Below, piece after piece: positions 3,982 to 12,388 of a DNA stretch of 35,215 bases. The notes beneath the pieces were generated by a model that made no database searches, had not been told where the DNA came from, and was given only the letters and a program-made list of their open reading frames with translations. This DNA is from Lentisphaerae bacterium ADurb.BinA184 (lineage in GTDB: Bacteria > Verrucomicrobiota > Lentisphaeria > Oligosphaerales > MVZH01). The stretch's first letter is position 1, and the number at the start of each line of letters is the position of its first letter. The position numbers and the translations under genes are program-made. The stretch is taken from assembly GCA_002068325.1 (NCBI GenBank), contig MVZH01000015.1, positions 1-35,215 of the forward strand, in the 5' to 3' direction.

Positions 3982-6933
3982 TCAACGATCCTCGACCTGC
4001 ACGGTGCCGTAGCCGGCAGGGCTGCAGTAGGGCCGGGGGGCGCCGAAAAGCGTCCCCCGCAGGCGGGCGCCGCCGGCGCGGTGAGCGGTGACCGCGACCT
4101 CGGCCAGCAAGGCGTCGGCGCGCGCGCCGATGCGCAGGAAGGCCAGCGGCAGCAACGCGGCAACCTCATACCCGTCGGCGGTGAGACGGGCGGCCACGCG
4201 CAGCGACGGATCGGCGGCCTGCCGGTCGCCGTCCTGAAACGCCACGCGCACCGGCTGCCCGGACACCGGCGGCACGAGGAAGACCTGCCGCAACTCGCCG
4301 GGCGCCGCGGCCCGGGCGGCCTCGGTGCGCTCCCCGGCACCCGCCAGGAAAAGCTCGACGCACGATCCCTCCCACGGTCGCGGCCCAGACACCAGCCGCG
4401 CCTCCTTGACCTTGACCAGGACCGCCAAATCCTCGCCGGCCACCGCCAGCGCAACCTCGGCCAACGCCAGCGAACGCGCCCACTGCACCGGCTGCCGCGA
4501 CAGCCCGGCCAGCGTCGCGAACACCCGCTCCACCGTCGAAACCGCCTCCAGCCGCGGCACCCGCCACTCGGGCGGACGCCCAAGGAACTCGAGCGTCGGC
4601 ACAAAACCCGCCCCCGAGACGACGGTCTCAACCGTCACAAACGCCAGCGGCCGCCGCCGCTTGACCGCGAACTCCACCGTGCGCGTCTCCCCCGGCTGGA
4701 GACCCTCAACCGCGCACAGCGGGCGACGGCGGAACTGCACGGCCTCGGGGGGAGAGACCACCAGCCGCACCCGCCCGCCCGCCACGGCCCGCCCGAGGTT
4801 GGTCAGCGTCAGACGGATGGCGCCGCCGGGCGTCTCCTCGAGGCGCGAGTGGACGATCGGCCGCGGCCGCGCCAACGCCTCGTCCGGCCACTCCTCGTAG
4901 GCGGCCGGCCGCACCCCCCGCCGGCCGCGCGGCCCCACCAGCCCGGCCAGCGTGAACGGCCGGAACCCGATCGCCACGGCCGGGGAGTCTTCGCGCAACG
5001 TGAAGTCGCCGGCCTCCGGCGCGCGGAAGAGCGGGTCGGCGACCACACTTGCACTGTGCTGCCCGAGCGCCTGCCACTCGGAAAGCCGCACCCCGCCCCC
5101 CAGGTCAAGATCCCCGCCCACACCGTCCCAGAACAGGTTGCGGGAGAACAGGAAGTGCCCGCGGGGCCACTCCGCATTGCGGAATCCGCAACCGCGCCAC
5201 CACACGATGTTGCCGGTGAACACCGTCGTGCGATGCGCCTCCTGCTTGCCGGGGTTGACGTGGGCGGCGCGGGCCAGCGCGAAGATGTTGTTGCGCACCA
5301 GGTTGTCGCGGCCGTAGTGCGTCGAGAAGCCGGCGTCGTCGGTGTCATGGACGATGTTGCCCTCGATGCGGATGCCGCTGCTGCCCTCGTCGGGGTAGAT
5401 GCCCCAGCCGCCGTAGTGGTAGCAGCCGATGTGATGGATGAGGTTGCCGCGCAGGGTGGTGCCGGGCTGGATGCCCAGCGTGTAGATGCCGCCGTTGTCG
5501 CTGAGGATGCGATCCCAGTTGATGTGATGGATGTGGTTGAACTCGATGCGGTTGTCAACCGTGGCGGTCGGCGCGTACCCCCACGTCCAGCCGCACGACA
5601 CCCCGGTGTAGTTCATGTCGTGGATGTGATTGCGCAGGATGCGGTTGCAGCCCGAGTTGCCGATCCACACGCTGACCGCCTGGTAGTGGATGCGGCTGCC
5701 GTCGCGGATCTCGCAGTCGCTGACCGTGGTCTCCATTGGCCGCCCGTCGGCGCGCCCGCGCAACGTGCCCCGGTGCGTCTCGTTCGAGCGTTCCAAGGCC
5801 TCGTGCCCGATGCGGACGCCGCCGCCGCCCAGGTCGAATAGCGTGCAGGCGACAATGCGGTTGCCGGCGCTGCCGGTGCGCACCTCGACGCCGTACTGGG
5901 CGACGTGCGAGACCTCGCACCCGTACAGCACGCAGTCGGTGGCCCAGTCGAAGACCACGGCGCCGGGCACTTTCCAGGCCGCCTGGATCGAGCCGGGATC
6001 GTCGGGCCCATACTCCCACTCGGCGTGGCGGAAGGCGAAGTTCTCGATGCGCACGTGACGGACCTCGGCGTCCGGCCGGCCGGCGAAAACCAGGATTTCG
6101 GCCAGGCGCGGGGCGACAACCTCGGCGGCGGCCATCTCCTCGCCGGGCAACGGCAGGTAGTACAGCCTGCCCTCGGCCCGGTCCAAGTAGAACTCGCCGG
6201 GCTCGTTGAGGGCCTCGAACACGTTCTCGACGAAGTACCGGGCCGGCAGCCCCTTCTCATCAATCAGGCTGCCAAGGCTCTTCGCGCGGAAGGTGACCGT
6301 GTTGGCGGCGAGGTCGAGCGCCTTGATCCGGTGGTGGGCCTCGAACCATAGCTGCAACGCCACGACCTTGACGTCGTCGCGGTGGCGCCAGTCCTGCAGG
6401 TCGCGGGTGCGGAACTTGGCCTCGGACGGGCCTTCAAGCCACGGCGTGTGGCCGCCGGCCGCCACGCTGGCAAAGCGGTAGTACCCGTGTTTCGGCAGGC
6501 GCGGCCGGAAACGGCGCCCGCCGTTGACAAACAGCTGCGTGAAGAACCACCGCCCGGCCCGCACCTCGGGCAGGTCCGCCACCCAACAGGCACGCCCTTC
6601 AACCGCCCCGGCCGACCACGTGCGGAGGCGCCGGCCGCCGCTCAAGACCGGCACTTCGCCGGGGAAGGCCGCATAGACGACCGGGGCCTCGGCCGTGCCC
6701 GAGTCGGCGGCGGTCAGCGTGAACGGCTCATCAAGCTCATACACCCCGCCGCGCACGAGGATGCGCGCCGCGCGGCCCTCGAGTTCCCCGGCGGCCCGCA
6801 GACGGCGGAGTTCGTCGCGGGCCCGCGTCAGCGTGGCGAACGGCCCGTCGGTGTGTTCGGGGTTGGGATCCGCCAGGCCGCCGCCCCACCGGTCGTTGCC
6901 GGCGGGAGAGACATAGAGCGTCGCGCAGTCCAT
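3982..6933 (-). CDS. GH141-like right-handed beta-helix protein with CBM9-like tail
   Basis: This 983-residue protein begins with LYVSPAGNDRWGGGL and GPFATLTRARDELRRLR, the usual opening of bacterial parallel beta-helix glycosidases of the GH141 type (fucosidase/xylanase-type activities are known there). A long central region is rich in short N/G/H turns (for example 'NRIEFNHIHHINWDRILSDN' and 'GNLIHHIGCYHYGGWGIYP'), as expected of helix coils. About residue 790 onward (LALAEVALAVAGEDLAVLVK, then CVELFLAG) resembles a CBM9-type carbohydrate-binding domain. The start at 6933 follows AAAGGA at about 10 nt. No signal peptide is visible, which is odd for an enzyme on large glycans. It lies 57 bp downstream of the propeller gene. 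The exact sugar substrate cannot be read from the sequence. Confidence 0.8.
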   Translation of the reverse strand: MDCATLYVSPAGNDRWGGGLADPNPEHTDGPFATLTRARDELRRLRAAGELEGRAARILVRGGVYELDEPFTLTAADSGTAEAPVVYAAFPGEVPVLSGGRRLRTWSAGAVEGRACWVADLPEVRAGRWFFTQLFVNGGRRFRPRLPKHGYYRFASVAAGGHTPWLEGPSEAKFRTRDLQDWRHRDDVKVVALQLWFEAHHRIKALDLAANTVTFRAKSLGSLIDEKGLPARYFVENVFEALNEPGEFYLDRAEGRLYYLPLPGEEMAAAEVVAPRLAEILVFAGRPDAEVRHVRIENFAFRHAEWEYGPDDPGSIQAAWKVPGAVVFDWATDCVLYGCEVSHVAQYGVEVRTGSAGNRIVACTLFDLGGGGVRIGHEALERSNETHRGTLRGRADGRPMETTVSDCEIRDGSRIHYQAVSVWIGNSGCNRILRNHIHDMNYTGVSCGWTWGYAPTATVDNRIEFNHIHHINWDRILSDNGGIYTLGIQPGTTLRGNLIHHIGCYHYGGWGIYPDEGSSGIRIEGNIVHDTDDAGFSTHYGRDNLVRNNIFALARAAHVNPGKQEAHRTTVFTGNIVWWRGCGFRNAEWPRGHFLFSRNLFWDGVGGDLDLGGGVRLSEWQALGQHSASVVADPLFRAPEAGDFTLREDSPAVAIGFRPFTLAGLVGPRGRRGVRPAAYEEWPDEALARPRPIVHSRLEETPGGAIRLTLTNLGRAVAGGRVRLVVSPPEAVQFRRRPLCAVEGLQPGETRTVEFAVKRRRPLAFVTVETVVSGAGFVPTLEFLGRPPEWRVPRLEAVSTVERVFATLAGLSRQPVQWARSLALAEVALAVAGEDLAVLVKVKEARLVSGPRPWEGSCVELFLAGAGERTEAARAAAPGELRQVFLVPPVSGQPVRVAFQDGDRQAADPSLRVAARLTADGYEVAALLPLAFLRIGARADALLAEVAVTAHRAGGARLRGTLFGAPRPYCSPAGYGTVQVEDR

Positions 6934-9033: not shown

Positions 9034-10395
9034 TCAGATCCACTCGCCGCGGCGGGCGCAGTCGTGGAGGTAGGAGAAAGCCTTCGGCGGCGGCATCGCC
9101 TCCAGCCCGCCGCGGATCTGCGGGGAGGGCGCCGGCAGGGCGCCGACGGCGGCGAAAACCTGGTTGCGCCGGGCCCGCGACGCATACTCGTGGCAGGCCT
9201 CGCGCCCCACATACGGGAAGTCGGCGTAACGGAAGAACCGCTGGTGCCCAACCACAACCTGCGCGCCCTCGATGAACTGCCGGGCAAGCGGCTTCATCGG
9301 CGGCGCCTCGAAATCGTCCACAAACCGCTGGCCGGGCTTGTTCATCTCCGTACCGACGAGCACCGGCAGGCCAAGGTCGCCGGCCATCTTGGCGTAGCGG
9401 TGCAACTCCCGGACCTTGCGTTCCCGCTGCGCCGGATCCTTGAGGTTCCAATTGCGGTCGGGGATGATGTTGGTGGCCGCAACACCCTTGCTGATCAGGC
9501 ACTCAAGCTGGGCGCCGGGATCGGCTTCGCCGGCGGACGTGCCGTCCAGCCACGTGCTGGTCGGGAGCGCACCGCAATCGAGGATCATCGCGATCACGTC
9601 GTCCAACGCGGGGAACGTGCCCTCGGTCGGCTGCGTGTAGCCCACCCCGCCCTTCTTCATCAGCTTCGAGCGCAGCAGGTCGAGGAAGCCGTTCACGTCG
9701 TGTGCCTTGGCCGCCAGGTCGTCGGCGCTGGTGCCGAGGCCGCGGGCCCAGAACGCCGCCGCCCGAACCGGGTCGCCCCCCGCCTTGGCCAGCGCCTTGT
9801 CAAAGTAGGCCGTGACGATGTGCCGCTCGGTGGCGTTGCCGGCCGGGGTCAGCGGCAGCACCTCGGAATCGTAGTCCAGACCGAGACCGGCAAGCCGGTC
9901 GTTGATGCGGGCGATGAGGTCGCGGTTGCGCTGATGCGACTGGTGCAACATGCGGGTCAGCACGCCGTGGGCGCAGCTGCCGGGGTCGGGTTCACGACGG
10001 AAGCCGACCCCCATGAAGTAGAAGACCCCGGGTTCGCCGGGGGAGTTGATCTCCTGGTTGCCGTACTCGCGGAAAAAGGTTCGCGTCTCAAACCCCACGG
10101 CGGCGCGCAGACGCAACGCCTCGGCGGCGTCGAGAAACTCGCGCAACCCCGCCAGCACGTCGAAATCGCAGATGCCGGCCGCGTAAAGACCCTCCCGCCG
10201 CGACTCCCAGGCCAGGCGTGTCGGCGACCAGCCCTCCCCGTTGTACGAGAAGAACGTGTGCATGTGCATGTTGACCCGCCACGTCTCCGCCGGCGCCGTG
10301 GCCTCGGCATCAAGCAGGGCGCTCAAGGCCCGCCGCCGGACGTCGGCGTCGAAGGAACTCAAGGCGTTGAGCAGGGCCGGGATGTCAGGGTTCAT
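9034..10395 (-). CDS. PHP-domain metal-dependent protein
   Basis: This is a 453-residue protein with an early PHP (polymerase/histidinol phosphatase) motif: VNMHMHTFFSYNGEG (H44, H46), then YAAGICDFDVLAGL and GFETRTFFREYG (E103). These should form a metal site for phosphoester hydrolysis. Motif 2 normally reads T/C-D-H; here it is CDFD (77-79), so one usual metal-ligand histidine is Phe. The C-terminal half contains 'GDLGLPVLVGTEMNKPGQ' and 'GAQVVVGHQRFFRYADFPYV'. The frame is open upstream to 10770 only because the repeat array lacks stops there; the ATG at 10395 (AGGACGCGTCC upstream) begins recognisable sequence. It is the first of a minus-strand run that continues with the propeller and GH141-like genes. 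Confidence 0.75.
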   Translation of the reverse strand: MNPDIPALLNALSSFDADVRRRALSALLDAEATAPAETWRVNMHMHTFFSYNGEGWSPTRLAWESRREGLYAAGICDFDVLAGLREFLDAAEALRLRAAVGFETRTFFREYGNQEINSPGEPGVFYFMGVGFRREPDPGSCAHGVLTRMLHQSHQRNRDLIARINDRLAGLGLDYDSEVLPLTPAGNATERHIVTAYFDKALAKAGGDPVRAAAFWARGLGTSADDLAAKAHDVNGFLDLLRSKLMKKGGVGYTQPTEGTFPALDDVIAMILDCGALPTSTWLDGTSAGEADPGAQLECLISKGVAATNIIPDRNWNLKDPAQRERKVRELHRYAKMAGDLGLPVLVGTEMNKPGQRFVDDFEAPPMKPLARQFIEGAQVVVGHQRFFRYADFPYVGREACHEYASRARRNQVFAAVGALPAPSPQIRGGLEAMPPPKAFSYLHDCARRGEWI

Positions 10396-10488
10396 GGACG
10401 CGTCCTGTTGCGGGTTGCGCACACTCCGGTAAGATAGCTGGACGCCCGCATGCCGCCACCCCGCCAGCAGGCCCCCGCCTCCGCCATG

Positions 10489-10925
10489 TGCGTGAAAACA
10501 CGCCGTTTTCACGAACTGGCGCCGCCGACCGCAGGCTGGCACCCACCCCGGACGAGTGCGTGAAAACACGGCCGTTTTCGCGAACTGGGCTTCCCCCCGG
10601 GAGGCGGCGTCCCCCCTGCCGAGTGCGTGAAAACACGGCCGTTTTCGCGAACTGGGCTTCCCCCCGGAGGCGGCACCCGCCCCTGACGAGTGCGTGAAAA
10701 CACATCCGTTTTCGCGAACTGGGCTTCCCCCCCGGAGGCGGCGTCCCCCCTGCCGAGTGCGTGAAAACACGACCGTTTTCGCGAACTGGGCTTCCCCCCG
10801 GAGGCGGCGCCCGCCCCTGACGAGTGCGTGAAAACACGGCCGTCTTCACGAACTGGACACGCCCCCCGGGAGCAGGCCCCACCCCCGGCCGTGTGCGTGA
10901 AAACACGCCCGTTTTCGCGAACTGG
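10489..10925. repeat. Seven-copy 67-bp tandem repeat with palindromic core
   Basis: Copies begin at 10489, 10557, 10624, 10691, 10758, 10825 and 10894, so the period is 67 bp (68 and 69 at the two ends). Each begins with a 31-32-bp core: TGCGTGAAAACACG, then 1-2 variable bases, CC, GTTTTCGCG and AACTGG. The arms CGTGAAAAC and GTTTTC(A/G)CG form an inverted repeat around a 5-6-nt centre. The 35-bp linkers are also similar (GGCTTCCCCCCGGAGGCGGC), but the outermost ones differ. Linkers alternate between two types, so copies 2+3 and 4+5 form a 134-bp higher-order duplication. The array occupies most of the 706-bp gap between the divergent PHP gene and diguanylate cyclase. The outer parts of the gap (10396-10488, 10926-11101) hold only a promoter candidate. 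Confidence 0.95.
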
Positions 10926-11101: not shown

Positions 11102-12388
11102 ATGGACCGGCGGGCAACCACCATCATTCCTCTGGCTCTCCTGGCGGGCGTCAGCCTGGCCGTGCTGCTGGCCGGCCAGTCGCTGGCGGAGCTGGATCGT
11201 GCGTGGTGGATCGAATACCTGCCCCTGATCGTCTTCCTGATCGCGGCGCTGATGGGCGGCCGCATGAACCACTCCCGCATCACGTTCCTGGCCCTGGTCG
11301 GGCTGTTTACCTTTCTGGCCGCGGGCAGCGGCGGCACGACTGAGCCGGTACAGCGGGCGACGGCGCTGGCGGCCGGGCTGGCCGTGTGCGTCTACACGCT
11401 CCTGTGCGCCCACTGGCGGGAGCGGGGGCTGGTGACGGAGCCGGGGGTTCTGCGGCTGCTGCTGGTCGTGGGTCCGATGGCGGTCCTGTGGGGCCTTGTG
11501 GCGACGCGCCCGGCAACGTTGGTGGTGCTGCTGCCGCGTTTCTTTGCGGCGCCGCTGTTCGGCCGGCTCCTGCCGTTGCCCTGGCCGGTTCTGCTGGGCG
11601 CGCTGGCCGTGGGGGCCCTGCTGACGGCGCGCCTTCCCCGACATCCGCTTGAAACACCGGTGCTGCCGGTCGCCATGGCGGCCATGCTGTTGGGGTTGGG
11701 CATGACCTCGCCGCGCTTTGTCGGGTGGGGGGCCGGCGGCGACATGGCCGTTCGCCTGGCGGCCGGCCGTGTGGCCTGTTCGCTGTTCATGGGCGTGGCG
11801 GCGCTGGTTCTGCTGCTCGCCTCGCTCGAACACTCCTACGGCAGCGCCTATCTGGACGAGCTGACCGGGCTGCCGGGGCGCCGCGCGCTCGAACAGCGCC
11901 TCTCGGCCCTCGGCTCGCGGTTCGCCGTGGCGATGGTGGACATTGACCACTTCAAGCGGGTCAACGACCGCTATGGGCACGCCGTGGGCGACCAGGCGTT
12001 GCGCTTCATCGCCGGGCACCTGCGCGACATCAAGGGCGGCAACGCCTACCGCTACGGCGGGGAGGAGTTTGCCGTCGTGCTGCCGCGGCGCGGGGAACGG
12101 GATGCCCTCGGGGTCATGGAGGACATCCGCGGGAGGATTGCGGAGGGGGTGTTCCACTTGCGGGCGAACGGGAGGCCGGCGGCGGCCGCCGAGCCGCCGA
12201 CGGGCAGTCCGACGGAGGGGATTCCGTTGACGGTCAGCGTCGGCATCGCGGCGGTGGCCCGCGGTGAACTGACCCCCGAGGAGGCGCTGGACGAAGCTGA
12301 CCGCGCCCTCTACCGGGCCAAGGAGCTGGGGCGGAACCGCACCGTACGGCGTAGCGAGCTCAAGGAGGACGAGCCATCGCTGGGCTGA
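11102..12388 (+). CDS. Membrane-anchored GGDEF diguanylate cyclase
   Basis: This 428-residue protein should make cyclic di-GMP from two GTP at the inner membrane. Residues 1-240 are a chain of hydrophobic segments (about six to eight helices; no known sensor domain recognised), followed by a GGDEF domain: 'YLDELTGLPGRRALEQRLSA', AMVDIDHFKRVNDRYGHAVG with the metal-binding Asp, and YRYGGEEFAVVLP with the GGEEF signature at 319-323. The allosteric I-site (RxxD, nine to six residues before GGEEF) is absent; the residues there are IKGG. So product inhibition of the usual kind is not expected. GGAAGG lies upstream of the ATG. No EAL or receiver domain is present. It is the first gene to the right of the repeat array. 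Confidence 0.9.
   Translation: MDRRATTIIPLALLAGVSLAVLLAGQSLAELDRAWWIEYLPLIVFLIAALMGGRMNHSRITFLALVGLFTFLAAGSGGTTEPVQRATALAAGLAVCVYTLLCAHWRERGLVTEPGVLRLLLVVGPMAVLWGLVATRPATLVVLLPRFFAAPLFGRLLPLPWPVLLGALAVGALLTARLPRHPLETPVLPVAMAAMLLGLGMTSPRFVGWGAGGDMAVRLAAGRVACSLFMGVAALVLLLASLEHSYGSAYLDELTGLPGRRALEQRLSALGSRFAVAMVDIDHFKRVNDRYGHAVGDQALRFIAGHLRDIKGGNAYRYGGEEFAVVLPRRGERDALGVMEDIRGRIAEGVFHLRANGRPAAAAEPPTGSPTEGIPLTVSVGIAAVARGELTPEEALDEADRALYRAKELGRNRTVRRSELKEDEPSLG

Follow-up and report, generated by a model that had tools for sequence, protein, structure and literature searches.

A run of evenly spaced palindromes between two genes raises the question of what has been conserved there: the array, the palindrome, or something smaller. 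In the window (the whole 35,215-nucleotide stretch analyzed here, from Lentisphaerae bacterium ADurb.BinA184), seven near-palindromes lie at 10487 to 10923 with start-to-start distances of 68, 67, 67, 67, 67, and 69 bp, between divergently transcribed genes for a PHP-domain protein and a GGDEF diguanylate cyclase. A sequence-only reading had described a regular array between these genes and proposed that its even spacing reflected binding at many sites or a repeat that spreads by itself. Both the array and its placement were confirmed. TRF reported a 67-bp tandem repeat of 6.5 copies (10488 to 10925), and the core pattern, allowing up to 3 mismatches, had 12 matches in the window versus 0 in 100 shuffles.

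Anatomy of the array

Each core in the window is an imperfect inverted repeat built of a 13-bp arm, a spacer of 5 to 6 bp, and a second 13-bp arm, in which the left arm is WGTGCGTGAAAAC and the right arm is the reverse complement of AGTTCGYGAAAAC (Table 1). The outermost linkers are unrelated to the inner ones or have diverged from them, and the arms beside them are intact, in agreement with the earlier proposal that the core is better conserved than the linkers at the array ends. No similarity to the window linker was found elsewhere in the genome beyond that centered on the core. What has been conserved is the half-site WGTKCGYGAAAAC of 13 bp; the 67-bp period is specific to this locus and does not define the conserved unit. 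The neighboring PHP-domain protein is widespread in the order, with ~50 to 63% identity in most relatives.

Table 1. Coordinates of the array and its flanking genes in the window
Feature	Position	Strand	Description
Palindrome 1	10487..10517	.	Arms 10487-10499 and 10505-10517, 5-bp spacer
Palindrome 2	10555..10586	.	Arms 10555-10567 and 10574-10586, 6-bp spacer
Palindrome 3	10622..10653	.	Arms 10622-10634 and 10641-10653
Palindrome 4	10689..10720	.	Arms 10689-10701 and 10708-10720
Palindrome 5	10756..10787	.	Arms 10756-10768 and 10775-10787
Palindrome 6	10823..10854	.	Arms 10823-10835 and 10842-10854; one mismatch in right arm
Palindrome 7	10892..10923	.	Arms 10892-10904 and 10911-10923
Linker stretch	10587..10822	.	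Four related 35-bp C-rich linkers, locus-specific
Four related linkers	10587-10621, 10654-10688, 10721-10755, 10788-10822		
Outer linkers	10518-10554 and 10855-10891		Not related to the four middle linkers, or diverged; arms intact
PHP-domain gene	9034..10395	-	Start likely ATG at 10395, read from sequence
GGDEF diguanylate cyclase gene	11102..12388	+	E=5e-32

A repeat family known from one organism

Counting the core across the genome, a check that the sequence-only reading had proposed, showed that it is far from unique. The draft genome (4.76 Mb) contains 454 matches to the 12-bp core pattern GTKCGYGAAAAC, compared to 0 for the reversed pattern, and the repeats form at least ~60 intergenic clusters in this one genome. 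The window array is one locus of a genome-wide and so far single-species intergenic family with the 13-bp unit WGTKCGYGAAAAC(R).

Counts in the remaining 196 class genomes range from 0 to 12, a background level like that of their controls, and the N6 palindrome was absent from 58 relatives. A scan of one genome per species, covering 84,980 species, returned two matches outside the host. One of these, L032 (Planctomycetota RA.bin114), was rejected as a second genome with the array because it matches host contig C113 at 100% identity across 3,637 bp and so represents the same strain; the other, in Rhodopirellula MED697 (L031), is one isolated site, probably due to chance. Since the first match is not independent and the second is a single site, only one organism is so far known to carry the family. 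The L032 sequence, JAKLDR010000240.1, is probably a mis-binned contig filed under RA.bin114, and its identity to C113 suggests that the two MAGs share one metagenome.

The motif was in none of the viral, phage, and plasmid collections searched, and none of the viral contigs, considered as a source of a possible phage-integrase target by analogy with NIME/dRS3, had the palindrome or a direct pair. No related arrays with another motif were seen in the sampled stretches of relatives; candidate arrays in one relative (G012) look like a CRISPR array. Literature searches with the motif sequence gave nothing relevant. Five host contigs (C65, C367, C336, C53, and C50) end within ~100 bp of clustered half-sites, suggesting that the assembly breaks at arrays and that their number is underestimated.

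Half-sites occur in many arrangements

Arrangement and placement were examined in 64 stretches (647 kb in total), almost all of them surrounding motif loci, with genes predicted by a simple codon model. This sample contains 385 half-sites with at most 1 mismatch, in 69 clusters of 1 to 20, where clusters were found via the motif itself and sites grouped in one locus are not independent. Per-position counts give the half-site consensus WGTKCGYGAAAACR, with ~23 bits of information summed over positions, more than the ~14 bits that would suffice to locate 454 sites in 4.76 Mb; this excess is as compatible with copying or drive as with binding.

Head-to-head arms are separated by 6 bp (n=78, a share inflated by a first sample drawn with the N6 pattern), 5 bp (n=22), 7 bp (n=21), or 8 bp (n=8). 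Some loci have inverted arms with an 18- to 21-bp gap, and others have direct repeats ~15, 19, or 37 bp apart. Arm spacing takes values of 2, 5 to 8, and 18 to 21 bp, direct or inverted. Linker sequence, period, and arrangement differ locus by locus. With periods from ~19 to >220 bp at other loci, the even 67-bp spacing in the window reflects local tandem duplication, and the earlier reading of its evenness was not supported; palindromes also showed no helical phasing across loci.

In many arrays (L043 7235, L057 6642-6822, L064 1426, L065 5538, L074 1100-1528, and others), half-sites are accompanied by a second word, GGGGTCTGTCCCC, at an almost fixed start-to-start distance of 23 to 26 bp. 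This word is also found elsewhere and is almost absent from the sampled relatives.

Arrays lie near the ends of unrelated genes

Half-sites fall outside predicted genes in 360 of 385 cases (94%), with 25 in coding sequence, though 85% of the sampled DNA is coding. The median distance from arrays is 150.5 bp to gene starts and 77 bp to stops (p=9e-6), the stop is the nearer end in 20 of the 26 arrays between same-strand genes (p=0.009), and 17/52 stops versus 3/48 gene starts lie within 60 bp of an array. Among sampled intergenic regions, arrays occur in 20% of divergent, 25% of convergent, and 13% of same-strand regions; an apparent enrichment in convergent regions weakened to p=0.10 in the larger sample and is not significant. 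Only 11 of 50 array-bearing regions are divergent. By region class and by distance to starts and stops, then, the divergent setting of the window array is not typical of the family.

Neighbors include URO-D-like methyltransferases, glycosidases, LpxI, a transcription-repair helicase, a gyrase B-like protein, and others, and the 76 neighbors examined have no functional theme, with no family represented more than four times. The location at 3' ends, the avoidance of gene starts, and the unrelated neighbors together argue that promoter regulation is not the general role of the arrays, contrary to what the window locus had suggested. The orientation of the C/T arm relative to transcription (10 to 4) was not significant.

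The half-site, not the hairpin, is conserved

Among the half-sites in arrays, 308 match exactly, 74 have one mismatch, and 10 have two. Those with three mismatches number 13 compared to 5.8 expected, and beyond three the counts equal chance, so the tail of decayed copies is missing. Between successive units, substitutions were found at 38 of 993 arm positions (3.8%), 27 of 196 spacer positions (13.8%), and 205 of 1,974 linker positions (10.4%), a comparison biased toward the arms in that they were defined by matching the motif.

The constraint on an arm does not depend on its partner. Unpaired half-sites are as well conserved as paired ones (exact to one-mismatch ratios of 88:26 and 221:49; p=0.32), and at the expected partner position beside unpaired half-sites decayed arms were not clearly more frequent than on the control side. 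Arms of a pair are not matched for hairpin pairing: 37 of 129 pairs are homotypic versus 43 expected, and the K and Y positions vary freely between the two arms. Spacer self-complementarity was not above expectation, and an early signal that perfect palindromes were avoided (p=0.005) faded to p=0.14 in the larger sample. Half-sites also have no strand bias relative to transcription (85 sense, 68 antisense). The missing decay tail, the equal conservation of unpaired half-sites, the lack of complementarity between arms, and the lack of strand bias argue that half-sites are recognized singly, as duplex DNA, and that the hairpin is not the conserved object.

Competing explanations

One alternative holds that these are selfish palindromes of the REP/REPIN/BIME type (PMC3733652, PMC2817692, PMC8049555), multiplied by a transposase, whether a RAYT (Y1) or another type; tandem arrays would then arise by replication slippage, and conservation would be due to recent copying. 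Like those elements, the family consists of extragenic palindromes in hundreds of copies, in tandem arrays, on the 3' side of genes, and in one lineage. Y1_Tnp genes are present in the host genome, and the array at C4 (L043) is found again at C190 (L074), with 86% identity over 332 bp, matching edge to edge among flanking genes with no similarity, so arrays can be copied between loci. Copying of this kind was seen for one pair only, however, and most loci have just the word in common; spacers and linkers differ by locus, leaving nothing longer than 13 bp common to most of them. None of the three Y1_Tnp loci has the motif nearby (in a draft ~82% complete, where a transposase may be in the missing part), no RAYT is linked to the arrays, and per-position counts flanking 269 sites revealed no GTAG or CGTC tag. 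REPs keep their palindromy via complementary changes (PMC2817692), whereas the arms here do not, and REPIN singlets are decaying remnants of doublets (PMC8049555), whereas unpaired half-sites here are not decayed. We consider this account rather unlikely, but a serious contender. With respect to the two options raised at the outset, arm conservation favors many-site binding and the array copied edge to edge favors some spread.

A word enriched by uptake-biased transformation, comparable to DUS/USS, would also be short, highly conserved, lineage specific, and present in hundreds of copies, with an information content beyond what binding requires; pairs in inverted orientation often lie near gene ends here, as in Neisseria (PMC2397512). 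It is nonetheless an improbable explanation for a word that is nearly absent from coding DNA and strongly clustered in long tandem arrays instead of being spread along the genome. Control of the PHP-domain and GGDEF promoters by a single transcription factor, with the array as its operators, would suit the position of the window locus between two divergent genes, but few other arrays have that setting, stops are nearer than starts, and neighbors lack a common function, making such a role very unlikely. Slighter still is the chance of an RNA hairpin acting as a terminator or mRNA stabilizer. The 3' bias of arrays and the folding of single palindromes (-9.6 to -19 kcal/mol) agree with it, whereas inspection found no T-tract after the stem, a terminator scan was at chance level, Rfam gave no match, arms do not covary, and direct half-site arrays are unable to form a hairpin. 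A functionless minisatellite made by slippage would account for locus-specific, tandemly duplicated linkers, but it is the least credible reading of one 13-bp word shared without a decay tail by ~60 otherwise unrelated clusters, and the genome-wide count already contradicts it. Recombinase sites like loxP/FRT were set aside for the variable spacing and direct arrays, and parS was set aside because its sequence is different. The hallmark of attC, RYYYAAC/GTTRRRY, is absent, and attC was set aside as well.

The closest known architecture is that of the neisserial dRS3/NIME repeats, which the family resembles. Those are hundreds of short inverted repeats with fixed ends and a free center (ATTCCC-N8-GGGAAT), in intergenic arrays with varied DNA between them (PMC3898611). 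Fixed arms, a free center, and intergenic arrays are likewise found here. The arm differs in sequence from that of dRS3 and is longer (13 bp), the spacer is of variable length, half-sites are also found singly or in direct repeats, most linkers do not belong to shared RS families, and a phage using the site was not found.

A putative factor that reads the word

The most likely explanation, which we hold at about an even chance, is a sequence-specific DNA-binding factor, with arrays that grow by tandem duplication and a word kept by selection or correction. Such a factor would read the word in double-stranded DNA, one half-site each, usually at head-to-head pairs 5 to 8 bp apart. Tandem duplication would include whatever DNA happens to separate the sites, a whole array would occasionally be copied to another place, and selection or biased correction would hold the word constant as linkers drift. 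The location of arrays downstream of genes with unrelated neighbors suggests a role at the scale of the genome, such as nucleoid organization, topology, or the insulation of transcription, and not a regulon; both this role and a protein reader of the word are what we infer from the pattern of conservation and placement. Against binding, a binding protein for the word was not found, and variable arm spacing, direct or inverted, is unusual for a rigid dimer. A more specific version is possible but doubtful. It proposes that a planctomycete has an architectural system spanning its genome: the 13-bp word would be read by a dedicated DNA-binding protein or by some other guided factor, clusters of 2 to 20 between genes, mostly downstream of them, would serve as topological or insulating anchors, and selection would preserve the word as arrays turn over.

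A hairpin and a transposase are the usual explanation for bacterial intergenic repeat families. What is conserved here is a short, hairpin-independent half-site, with several hundred undecayed copies in decayed surroundings. If a protein reads this word, the two would make up an abundant and highly specific system for binding the chromosome, in a phylum whose nucleoids are unusual; if the word is instead maintained by copying, all known elements would be far larger than the unit copied.

Other repeats in the host genome

Several further repeats were observed. Long repeats with GTGCAACCCGGAGGGTTG lie on both sides of a Y1 (RAYT-like) transposase gene on C76 (L097 ~4950-6150) and are a separate REP-like family, different from the half-site motif. 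An 86-bp tandem repeat of 5.3 copies at L045 264-722, with the hairpin-like CACACTTCGCAAAGTGTG, is unrelated to the half-site. Another dispersed family, around GACCTCCGTGTCGTCC and GGTTCTGCAAGCG, is absent from sampled relatives and occurs at ~15 sampled loci and in many intergenic regions of the host genome (G000), for example at L099 4613 and 7793.
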